NCBI GenBank assembly: GCA_003023365.1
Contig: PXTG01000056.1
Span: forward strand, 1-42,889
DNA: 42,889 nucleotides
Source: Bacteroidetes bacterium QH_7_62_13
Lineage (GTDB): Bacteria; Bacteroidota; Rhodothermia; Rhodothermales; Salinibacteraceae
Direction of reading: 5' to 3'
Both the position numbers and the translations under genes were made by a program. The number at the start of each line of letters is the position of its first letter. Position 1 is the stretch's first letter. Below the pieces are notes generated by a model. It was not told the origin of the DNA, ran no database searches, and saw only the letters and a program-made list of their open reading frames with translations. Below are positions 10,023 to 28,767 of the stretch, one piece after another.

Positions 10023-10262
10023 ATGGCGGATCGCGATCGACGCGGCATGCTGATCAAAAACAACGGAGACGAAGGGGTCCAGGTCTCGATGTCGTCGCGG
10101 ACGTTGGAGATTGGACCGGGGGAGGAAAAATTCCTGACCCCAGAGGAGGTTCGGGATCCGACGCTTCGCGAGGCGCTCCAGGAGCGAAGCATCTCAATCG
10201 TGCGCCCGGCGACGGAGGCGGAGGATGAGGTCATTCAGGAACGTCTTGAGTCCGACGATTAG
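10023..10262 (+). CDS. small acidic hypothetical protein
   Basis: A 79-residue protein (start ATG 10023) that I cannot assign to a family. It opens with MADRDRRGMLIKNN, suggests a short beta-rich domain (VQVSMSSRTLEIGPGEEKFL), and ends in a strongly acidic helix with an E/D-rich tail. The acidic character matches a halophilic cytoplasmic protein, and codon use resembles the neighbours, so I take it as a real gene. It ends 53 bases before the glycosyltransferase gene on the same strand and could be co-transcribed with it. The open frame extends back to 9663, but that part overlaps comF antisense. Confidence 0.65.
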   Translation: MADRDRRGMLIKNNGDEGVQVSMSSRTLEIGPGEEKFLTPEEVRDPTLREALQERSISIVRPATEAEDEVIQERLESDD

Positions 10263-10315
10263 TTCGTCGTGCCGTTCTCGCCTACCCGACGCTGTGAATC
10301 GACACTTCGACGACC

Positions 10316-11467
10316 ATGAATGTACTCGCTTTGGAGCCGTGGTACGGCGGCTCCCACCAGCGTTTTCTCGACGGGCTCGTCGAGCACAGTGCGCATGATA
10401 TTCGCCCCATCACGATGCCGGGCCGCTTTTGGCGCTGGCGGATGGAGGGGGGCGGGGTCACCCTCGCGAAGAAGGTGCGGTCGGCCATTCGCGAGGGGGT
10501 TCGCCCGGATCTGGTCTTCGCCACCGACAAGGTAAACCTGCCCGCCGTCCTGTCCCTGGCGCGTTCGGCGCTGGCAGACGTGCCGGTCGTCCTCCACTTC
10601 CACGAAAATCAGCTCACCTATCCGCTTTCTCCGGACCAGGAGCGGGAGCGGGCCTACGCCATCACGAACTATCTGTCGGCTCTCGCGGCGGATCAGGTCG
10701 TCTTCAACTCCCGGTTCCACTTCGAGGAGTTCGTCGATGCGCTGCCACAACTCCTGCGCGACTTCCCCGACTTCACGAACATGCATACGGTTCGGGACCT
10801 CCGGGCGAAGAGCACGGTGCTCCACCAGGGGATGGATCTCGCAGCGCACGACGAGTATGGGGGCGGTCGGACTGAACGCTCCCTGCATTCCACCCAGGCG
10901 CCCGTGGTGCTGTGGAATCAGCGCTGGGAGTACGATAAGAATCCCTCGGCCTTCTTCCGGGTCATGAACCGGCTCGACGACGTGAACGTCCCCTTTCGGT
11001 TAATTCTGGCCGGGAAGCAGTTCCACGAGCAGCCCGAGGAGTTCGAGCAGGCCTTTGAGCGCTACGCGGAGCGCATCCTGCACTACGGCTACGCCGAGGA
11101 CTTTGCCGAGTATAGCCGCCTCCTCCACCGGGCGGACGTGGTGGTGTCCACTGCGCGGCACGAGTTCTTTGGGGGGGCGGTGCAGGAGGCCATCTACTGC
11201 GGCTGCCACCCCGTCCTCCCCAACCGGCTCAGCTACCCGGAGCTCATCCCCGAGACGCACCACAAGCCGCTGCTGCACGCCCCCATCCTATACGAGGACG
11301 ACGATGACCTCTTCGACGTGCTGCGCGGCATTCTGGAGGGGGAGGAGCGCCCGCTCCCGTCAGACACGCTCCGGAAGATGCCGGCGCCGCTCGACTGGGA
11401 CGAGCACGTGCAGGACTACGACGCGCTGTTTGAGGAGGTGGCGGAGGAAGCCGCCGTCCCGGCCTGA
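10316..11467 (+). CDS. GTDC1/QTMAN-like glycosyltransferase (tRNA-queuosine mannosyltransferase family)
   Basis: A 383-residue GT-B-like glycosyltransferase. The N-terminus MNVLALEPWYGGSHQRF and PGRFWRWRMEGG near residue 38 are hallmarks of the DUF3524/GTDC1 family. VVLHFHENQLTYP near 93 and NSRFHFEEF near 130 complete that domain. The C-terminal half has ILAGKQF and VVSTARHEFFGGAVQEA near 278, a group 1 glycosyltransferase donor site. The vertebrate member was shown to mannosylate queuosine in tRNA-Asp; whether this bacterial protein does so is inference. No queuosine-synthesis gene is visible here. It converges on an unknown gene with an eight-base gap. Confidence 0.85.
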   Translation: MNVLALEPWYGGSHQRFLDGLVEHSAHDIRPITMPGRFWRWRMEGGGVTLAKKVRSAIREGVRPDLVFATDKVNLPAVLSLARSALADVPVVLHFHENQLTYPLSPDQERERAYAITNYLSALAADQVVFNSRFHFEEFVDALPQLLRDFPDFTNMHTVRDLRAKSTVLHQGMDLAAHDEYGGGRTERSLHSTQAPVVLWNQRWEYDKNPSAFFRVMNRLDDVNVPFRLILAGKQFHEQPEEFEQAFERYAERILHYGYAEDFAEYSRLLHRADVVVSTARHEFFGGAVQEAIYCGCHPVLPNRLSYPELIPETHHKPLLHAPILYEDDDDLFDVLRGILEGEERPLPSDTLRKMPAPLDWDEHVQDYDALFEEVAEEAAVPA

Positions 11468-26485: not shown

Positions 26486-27025
26486 GTGAATGGCTCCCTC
26501 CTCCAGTGGGTCGCGCGAATTGCGTGGCTCGTTCCACTTCTGTTCTTTGGCCTGTCGGTGCATCAGGGGAAGGTCGCCTATGACTTGCACGCGACCAAAG
26601 TGACGGGGACACCCGCTTCGGCCGAGGTACTGGAGATGAAAAAGGGAAATCGGCAGGACGTAACCTACGATTACGTGAGTCTTCGCGTTGACCTCCCCGA
26701 CGGGGGAACGCTCACGCGAGAAAAGCTGTCGCTGCCGCACGGGCTGGTGCCTCCGCTCCTCGATCGGGAAACCCTTCAGGTAACCGTGAAAGAGGGGGCG
26801 AGCATTCCGGTCGTAATCACAGAGAAAATCGGCCCAACCCCGGCCGTAGACACGCAGATGCGCATCGCCGGTATCAATGGTCTCATGAGCCTCGGTGCGG
26901 CTCTTCTGTTCGGGTTCGGAATTTGGTTCTGGAACCGCAGCCTTCGTCGCAACGGGGATCCCGCGGATCGAGGCGTTAGCGAGTCTGATCCCGATCATCC
27001 TGCTCGACAAATGGTCCGGTCCTAG
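26486..27025 (+). CDS. two-helix membrane protein, DUF3592-like
   Basis: A 179-residue protein from a GTG at 26486 (frame open to another GTG at 26384). It has a membrane segment near residues 9-28 (IAWLVPLLFFGLSVHQ), an outside-facing domain with beta pattern (ASAEVLEMKKGNRQDVTYDYVSLRVDLPDGG), and a second segment near 136-152 (LMSLGAALLFGFGIWFW), then a polar tail. This layout fits DUF3592-type proteins, whose function is unknown. Its 3' end overlaps the convergent BlaI-TonB gene by 50 bases, an unusual tail-to-tail overlap. Confidence 0.6.
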   Translation: MNGSLLQWVARIAWLVPLLFFGLSVHQGKVAYDLHATKVTGTPASAEVLEMKKGNRQDVTYDYVSLRVDLPDGGTLTREKLSLPHGLVPPLLDRETLQVTVKEGASIPVVITEKIGPTPAVDTQMRIAGINGLMSLGAALLFGFGIWFWNRSLRRNGDPADRGVSESDPDHPARQMVRS

Positions 27026-27884
27026 CCCGAATTGGGTTCCACCCCCCAGTCACCTGTTGCGTGCTTTGGTTTGAGGAAACCGACGCATTCCGGTACTCAA
27101 ACCGTATCCGGACTTCTTGCCCCTTCAGGGAGCAGTCGATCCCGTTCCGCGGAGCACACGCCCGAAAAGGCAATATCAAGGTCGACCTGTCGGTGTTTTC
27201 GGTGGTTTTATCGGAGGAGTCGGACGGAATTCGAACCGTGATGGGAAGGGTCATCTCGGTTGGACCCGGTGCTTCGTCCATACGGCCGGGCTCAAACGTG
27301 ACCGAACGAAGGGCACGGACCGCGGCAGGGTCTAACAATCGGTGAACACCGCGCTTCACCTGAATGTCGTGGGCCGTTCCTTTCGCGTCCACGACGAACT
27401 GGAGGTGCACCTCTCCTTCAGGGCCGGACTCCTTTGCCAATTCCGGATACTGAACCTGTTCCTGGAGTGCCTGCATGCTTCCGTTCAGAGAAGGAGGCGT
27501 CTCGACGCCCTGCAAGCCGGCAGGTGTATGGGAAGAGGCGTCCTCGTTCGACGTGGACGGTGATTCGGAAAGGGCGAGGGCATCAAGTTCGGTATGGTTG
27601 AAACCGTCGGCAAAGGAAAGAAGCAAGCGAGCGTAATCACCCGGGGACGTGTGCCGCCGGATAGGGCGGCGGCGTCGCAGAAGGCTGTGCTGTACCTCGT
27701 CCGGCTGCTGGGCCGGTTCGTACACGTAGGACCGCCCCTCCTTCCGGTAGGATAGGTATCCCTCTTCGGCGAGCTTTTTCGGCACCGTCATGACCGTTGT
27801 GTCGGCCACGTCCCGGTCCTCGGTGATACGCTCGCGGACATCGGCCTCGGTGGCCTCGCCGAGATCCCACACGTGGTGGAGCAC
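26976..27884 (-). CDS. BlaI/MecI-type winged helix fused to an M56 remnant and TonB C-terminal domain
   Basis: From a GTG at 27884 the frame encodes 302 residues. Residues 1-57 are most of a BlaI winged helix (VLHHVWDLGEATEADV, then VMTVPKKLAEEGYLSYRKEGRSYVYEP). Residues 79-93 (TSPGDYARLLLSFAD) resemble a segment from M56/BlaR1 peptidase-sensor proteins. Residues 140-219 are a TonB C-terminal domain (VQYPELAKESGPEGEVHLQFVV, DPAAVRALRSVTFEPG). An 80-residue tail follows with no match. The frame continues upstream without an ATG as far as the BlaI N-terminus (SLTHLGETKLEVL), so the true start is unclear. No M56 membrane helices or zinc motif are present. Confidence 0.75.
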   Translation of the reverse strand: MLHHVWDLGEATEADVRERITEDRDVADTTVMTVPKKLAEEGYLSYRKEGRSYVYEPAQQPDEVQHSLLRRRRPIRRHTSPGDYARLLLSFADGFNHTELDALALSESPSTSNEDASSHTPAGLQGVETPPSLNGSMQALQEQVQYPELAKESGPEGEVHLQFVVDAKGTAHDIQVKRGVHRLLDPAAVRALRSVTFEPGRMDEAPGPTEMTLPITVRIPSDSSDKTTENTDRSTLILPFRACAPRNGIDCSLKGQEVRIRFEYRNASVSSNQSTQQVTGGWNPIRARTGPFVEQDDRDQTR

Positions 27885-27981
27885 CTCCAGCTTCGTTTCG
27901 CCGAGGTGAGTGAGTGATTTTCGCTGAGGTCCAGTTCTTAGTGGCGTGTTGTTCTCTGCCTCATAGAGAACCGGTCGATCT

Positions 27982-28767
27982 TTAGGAGATAGACGGGTCG
28001 GACCTCCGGTAGGGGTAGAGGGGCGCGACCCGTTCCGGATCGGCCCCGCATACGTAGTGAAGCCAAAGGAAGAGGTTGCGGAGTTGCTGGGTCAGAATGC
28101 CCTCCCGACGAAAGCGTCGCGCAGAGGTGATGACGGCGGTGTCGAGGAAGCGAAACCCGCCCCGGCTATGCAACCGATCGGCCAGCTCCAGATCTTCGAA
28201 GATGGGCCAGTCCGGATAGCCCCCGACTGCTTCAAATGCCGTCCGGGTCACGAACAGGCCCCGGTCGCCGAAACAGAGGCGAATCCATGGCCAGGCCGTG
28301 CACCACGCATAGAACCGGAGTAGGGGGGTGGGGGCGTCAAACCGGAGCCGGAACGTCCCGGCGGAGGCGCCGGGGGGCGCGAGTGTATCCCGGATGAGCG
28401 TAAGGCCGTTCGAGGGGAGGCGGGTATCGGCGTGGAGAAAGAGATAGACCTCCCCGTTTGCCGCCTCGGCCCCCCGATTCAGCTGAGAGGCACGTCCCCG
28501 GGGTGCTCGGAGGACGGTTGCCCCGGTTGCTCGTGCACATTCACGGGTGCTATCTTCTGAATGGCCATCCACGACGAGAACCTCAAACGGAGCAGTCTGC
28601 TCGTCGAGTGCCGTCAAGGTTTCTCCGATAACGGTCTCTTCGTTGAGGGTTGGAATGATGACAGAAATGAAAGATCGGTCGGTCACACTGCTGGTTGGCG
28701 CCGTAATCGGATTGAGCGGAAATGAGACCCGCTGGCTGTGGTCTCCATCGATTTGTGGGCCTACCAC
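27982..28767 (-). CDS. family 2 glycosyltransferase (TIGR04283-like)
   Basis: A protein of up to 261 residues with a GT-A fold. ISVIIPTLNEETVIGETL begins the nucleotide-binding half, VLVVDGHSEDST near residue 64 and YLFLHADTRLP near 108 (DxD) complete the donor site, and CFGDRGLFVTRTAFEAVGGYPDWPIFEDLEL near 165 is characteristic of the selenodomain-associated transferase 2 group. The GTG at 28767 overlaps the end of the upstream gene by seven bases; a GTG at 28686 just before ISVIIP is perhaps likelier. Substrate is unknown. Confidence 0.88.
   Translation of the reverse strand: MVGPQIDGDHSQRVSFPLNPITAPTSSVTDRSFISVIIPTLNEETVIGETLTALDEQTAPFEVLVVDGHSEDSTRECARATGATVLRAPRGRASQLNRGAEAANGEVYLFLHADTRLPSNGLTLIRDTLAPPGASAGTFRLRFDAPTPLLRFYAWCTAWPWIRLCFGDRGLFVTRTAFEAVGGYPDWPIFEDLELADRLHSRGGFRFLDTAVITSARRFRREGILTQQLRNLFLWLHYVCGADPERVAPLYPYRRSDPSIS

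Follow-up and report, generated by a model that had tools for sequence, protein, structure and literature searches.

A probable collapsed blaI/M56-TonB operon that reads as a single open frame in a salt-lake bacterium

An open frame with parts of three proteins

The window analysed here comprises 42,889 nucleotides of contig PXTG01000056.1 from Bacteroidetes bacterium QH_7_62_13, a salt-lake bacterium whose genome is a metagenome bin that is 62% complete and divided among 118 contigs. A stop-free frame on the minus strand contains, in succession, the winged helix of BlaI, a fragment of an M56 peptidase and a C-terminal TonB domain (Table 1). This is the composition reported in an earlier sequence-only reading, and both Pfam matches (Penicillinase_R, PF03965, E 6e-16, and TonB_C, as listed in Table 1) and profile scores bear it out. 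Neither a membrane helix nor an HExxH zinc motif was found in the fused frame, again as had been stated. The upstream part of the frame overlaps the end of a glycosyltransferase (GT) gene and is non-coding there in this frame, and at its other end the frame covers roughly the last 50 nt of ORF213. Long frames are common in the window, with 63 stop-to-stop frames of at least 200 aa, and the open length is therefore in itself no evidence here. About 3-4% of random substitutions in the locus sequence create a stop, and the probability of encountering none is approximately 0.3-0.6 with 10-20 missense changes, such that the open frame is unsurprising and its openness is no argument for function.

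Table 1. Features of the fused frame and its upstream region (window coordinates).
Feature	Position	Strand	Basis or extent
Whole stop-to-stop open frame	26976..28091	-	371 codons
Remnant (52 nt) of the pre-blaI intergenic region, operator-like element absent	27930..27981	-	Motif scoring against relatives
CCT codon where relatives have the blaI ATG	27927..27929	-	Alignment to relatives
BlaI winged-helix (DNA-binding) relic, BlaI residues 2-86	27672..27926	-	Pfam, relatives' alignment
TGCGACGCC, 9 bases, first deletion junction: BlaI end (..LRR) in one frame, M56 start 'CDA' in another	27671..27679	-	Alignments
M56 peptidase relic (HTSPGDYARLLLSFADG...LALSESPSTS)	27549..27653	-	Relatives' M56 profile, 28.2 bits
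Second deletion region	27509..27555	-	Spacing compared with relatives
TonB C-terminal domain relic, the first TonB domain of relatives' M56-TonB protein	27237..27458	-	PF03544, E 1.2e-13
Probable remnant, frame-shifted, of the sequence that follows TonB domain 1 (VDLDIAFSGVCSAERDRL when read in a different frame, followed by TGA)	27090..27190	-	Shuffle tests, suggestive only

Profiles were built from the M56-TonB proteins of ten relatives and the BlaI proteins of twelve. Frame residues 56-140 correspond to the BlaI winged helix and score 160 bits against the relatives' BlaI profile, and the TonB part scores 125.6 bits against the relatives' profile over residues 193-306. Between them, residues 147-181 score 28.2 bits against the M56-TonB profile and -3.0 bits against the BlaI profile, and derive from the part of M56 that lies downstream of HExxH. 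The M56 identity of this piece had been correctly recognised, although it is about 35 residues long and not 15. In the proteins of relatives Pfam confirmed a full M56 domain together with TonB_C, whereas no match to PF05569 (M56) was found anywhere in the window's assembly and no intact second copy of PF03965 or PF05569 elsewhere in it, the bin being 62% complete. The TonB_C fold is retained in the frame, but the membrane anchor that would place it in the periplasm is not, the transmembrane and lipobox segment having been deleted. Analysis of dN/dS for the TonB part yielded no usable value, as the window branch ran to the upper bound of 20.

In the reported frame the final ~70 residues have no convincing homology, and the stretch given as a frame-shifted remnant in Table 1 is not homologous coding sequence in that frame. 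Read in the shifted frame, which was not fixed beforehand, and compared with the two closest relatives, its protein-level score is reached by 0/200 shuffles against G007 and 1/200 against G009, and at the DNA level by 5-10/1000 shuffles; both results are suggestive only.

The locus in relatives

In 12 relatives blaI is adjacent to a separate M56-TonB gene, and 11 of these 12 fetched relatives share the gene neighbourhood of the window, in the order DDAH, GT, blaI, M56-TonB, and then ORF213 and HNH on the opposite strand (G007 is counted among the 11 though its contig stops before ORF213 and HNH). The twelfth, G014, has both blaI and M56-TonB with neighbours that differ. In the window the fused frame is flanked by DDAH and GT on one side and by ORF213 and HNH on the other, as arranged in the 11 relatives, and the proposal that relatives would carry two separate, adjacent genes thus holds at this very locus, where deletion joined them. 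The fused layout was found in none of 60 relatives, all 27 family genomes and 245 class genomes, nor in a 395-genome phylum sample, the last at E <= 1e-27 only. A settled fused family, which the sequence-only reading had named as a refuting outcome, was rejected for lack of a second genome with this layout in the searched sets. A BlaI-TonB fusion was not described in any paper found by literature search, where the few term-sharing matches were incidental.

The pair is missing from three congeners. In G008 it has been lost and GT and ORF213 are now adjacent, and in G001 and G012 no trace of it was found at the locus, where other genes are present. The G001 gap (L096:7641-11083) contains two long minus-strand frames that, by reading, resemble GAF/PAS sensor histidine kinases; the corresponding gap in G012 (L097) is also without the pair. 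In a four-gene tree the window falls near G007, G009 and G008 (supports 92-99). Because G007 and G009 have kept the pair intact, its loss in G008 appears to have been independent of that in the window.

Where the pair is present, the part of the M56-TonB proteins (L064-L074) after the first TonB domain is highly variable between congeners; some carry a second TonB domain, and the tail in G004 is unrelated, matching ExbD weakly. G011 apparently has two M56-type genes after blaI (L069:7604-9154 and ~10227-10922), one of which ends not in TonB but in a carboxypeptidase-regulatory-like domain, assigned by reading only.

Lesions in the control region, the junctions and BlaI

The beginning of blaI, ATG-CAG-CGA in relatives, is CCT-CAG-CGA in the window. 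No ATG, GTG or TTG occurs in frame before a GTG at 27884, which sits within the BlaI domain, and initiation there would cost the first 15 BlaI residues. The unclear start had been attributed to either decay or a non-ATG start; decay fits these observations and a non-ATG start does not. The gap preceding blaI is also reduced, to 52 nt compared with 96 nt in G007. Upstream of blaI, ten relatives match a dyad-containing element, TACGACnT...TAnTACTA...TAGTA, at 19-21 of its 21 positions (the G007 version is TACGACCTAAGTAATACTAGTTCAATAGTA), whereas the corresponding window region matches at best 10/21. The element is absent too from the three congeners without blaI. Its position and symmetry make it a candidate BlaI operator, which could be used to search for a regulon and so for what the intact pair regulates. 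The conserved element, TACGACnTnnnTAnTACTAnnTAnnTAGTA, lies some 20-55 nt ahead of blaI in G016 and nine congeners (L064-L072, L074).

In eight relatives 895-904 nt, always 1 mod 3, separate the BlaI 'LL' codon from the M56 'CDAA' codons, and blaI and M56 are therefore in different frames in these genomes. In the window the two sequences meet at the microhomology TGCGACGCC, which is likely the deletion point, with ~900 nt lost. The M56 DNA homology reaches back to the CDAA codons, and over its first 38 nt the real score was reached by 0/300 shuffles for seven of the eight relatives and by 4/300 for the other. From the junction to GDYARLL there are 41 nt in the window and 42 in most relatives, by direct count and by alignment, showing that a separate 1-nt loss put the M56 stub into the frame of blaI. 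Further on, LSES and the TonB start are separated by 240-264 nt in relatives but by 90 nt in the window, corresponding to a second deletion of ~150-174 nt with which a transmembrane segment and a lipobox (GVVACSDS) are gone. Of the earlier proposal that a deletion fused two genes in frame, the deletion stands, but a single in-frame event does not, as a ~900-nt deletion and a 1-nt loss are both needed and a second deletion follows. Nor would any single sequencing correction, another outcome that had been envisaged, restore two separate genes.

BlaI homology stops near frame residue 140 (BlaI residue 86), although the Pfam Penicillinase_R match extends to residue 172. MecI and BlaI are cleaved at 101-102 (PMC5341023, PMC9834060), and the window homology ends short of this, the C-terminal dimerisation half and the cleavage-site region being missing. 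Within the retained part there are seven substitutions unseen among 34 relatives (E/K, M/L, V/E, L/T, Y/D, L or M/P, K/E), and neither the proline at BlaI position 50 nor the Asp replacing an invariant Tyr at 43 occurs in any of these. Position 50 aligns with MecI 49, and as the MecI recognition helix (alpha-3) spans 41-56 (PMC5341023), this alignment puts position 50 inside that helix, with 43 marking its beginning; the recognition helix of the window BlaI is not intact.

Private changes at BlaI columns that are invariant among the others number 6/57 in the window compared with 2/461 in nine congeners (p 3e-5), and by the same measure the GT, HNH, ORF213 and DDAH genes of the window have 9/386 (p 0.007 against the window BlaI), so that the neighbouring genes do not have a substitution excess like that of BlaI. 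These invariant-column counts indicate relaxed constraint on the window lineage. In a branch model, omega for BlaI is 0.085 on the window branch and 0.024 in the background (p 0.065), and omega = 1 is rejected (p 0.038), showing that most of the window branch was under constraint. Weak as they are alone, these values are compatible with recent decay after long constraint.

Interpretation and relation to known systems

Compared with the intact orthologues at this position in relatives, the locus thus has several independent disabling lesions, as in a pseudogene, and the fused frame is a relic damaged at multiple points rather than a clean fusion. From these comparisons the locus is very probably a recently dead, collapsed two-gene operon, consisting of blaI and the gene for an M56-TonB membrane protease, that is intact at the same place in relatives; ordinary gene decay is the most likely origin, rather than a new type of regulator. 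A plausible course is that the pair first lost its use, that a deletion between short repeats then took the end of blaI and most of M56, that a 1-nt loss by chance aligned the M56 stub with the frame of blaI, and that a second deletion stripped the membrane anchor. The joined homologous segments are still stop-free, which counts against decay, but the sequence remains open because it is G+C-rich and the decay is recent. The locus probably makes no functional product and is probably heading to complete loss as seen in three congeners. Absence of the pair from these congeners together with its decay in the window suggests that it is dispensable in the genus.

The sequence-only reading had raised the prospect of a working cytoplasmic DNA-binding protein with a TonB domain. 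Such a chimera would be translated from GTG 27884 or another non-ATG start and have an altered winged helix, with TonB as a new partner-binding part. The frame is indeed free of stops through BlaI, the M56 stub and TonB, and the TonB fold region is still recognisable, but we consider this explanation highly improbable: the GTG omits the beginning of BlaI and has no start upstream of it, the operator is lost, BlaI is truncated before its dimerisation half and cleavage site, a proline and an aspartate lie in or at the recognition helix, and the layout has no second instance among 245 genomes of the class. The proposed activity is not supported, its start, operator, dimerisation half and recognition helix being lost or damaged.

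An artefact of metagenome assembly, in which two places were joined or sequence was dropped and the true locus is intact, is also very unlikely. The incompleteness and fragmentation of the bin and the location of the first junction within a short repeat would favour such an artefact, but one misjoin cannot give a lost start, a lost operator, a 1-nt frameshift, a second deletion and seven substitutions, and the flanking genes are intact and without an error-like excess. Assembly collapse typically needs repeats longer than 9 bases. A simple BlaI-TonB fusion that never included M56, the extra stretch being the C-terminal dimerisation domain of BlaI, would account for the extent of the Penicillinase_R match, yet it has almost no probability; that identity of the stub is ruled out by its scores against M56 and same-genus BlaI given above, and homology to M56 DNA continues back to the CDAA codons.

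A collapsed operon has little significance beyond this locus, although it is a clear case of two adjacent genes that, collapsed by deletion at a short repeat, can be mistaken for a new domain fusion when a sequence is read raw or automatically. Among known systems, the nearest is the BlaI/MecI repressor with a BlaR1-like M56 partner (PF03965 with PF05569), which the window resembles in its BlaI winged helix and the relatives resemble, as in bla/mec systems, in their intact blaI followed by an M56 gene. The window differs in that BlaI has neither its start nor its dimerisation half nor the region of the cleavage site, only ~35 residues of M56 are left and the operator has been lost; and the M56 proteins of the genus differ from the BlaR1-like partner in having TonB_C domains, with no penicillin-sensor domain in the three that were scanned with Pfam. 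The stub and TonB domain of the window are the remains of an M56-TonB gene such as those of Salinibacter relatives (e.g. G007, a 629-codon frame); HExxH, the membrane helices, the lipobox and most of what follows TonB 1 are missing in the window. The closest likeness in kind is to bacterial pseudogenes arising from short-repeat deletion, with which the locus shares a lost start, a frameshift, microhomology deletions, relaxed constraint and complete loss in congeners, and from which it differs in that its remains form, by chance, one open frame.
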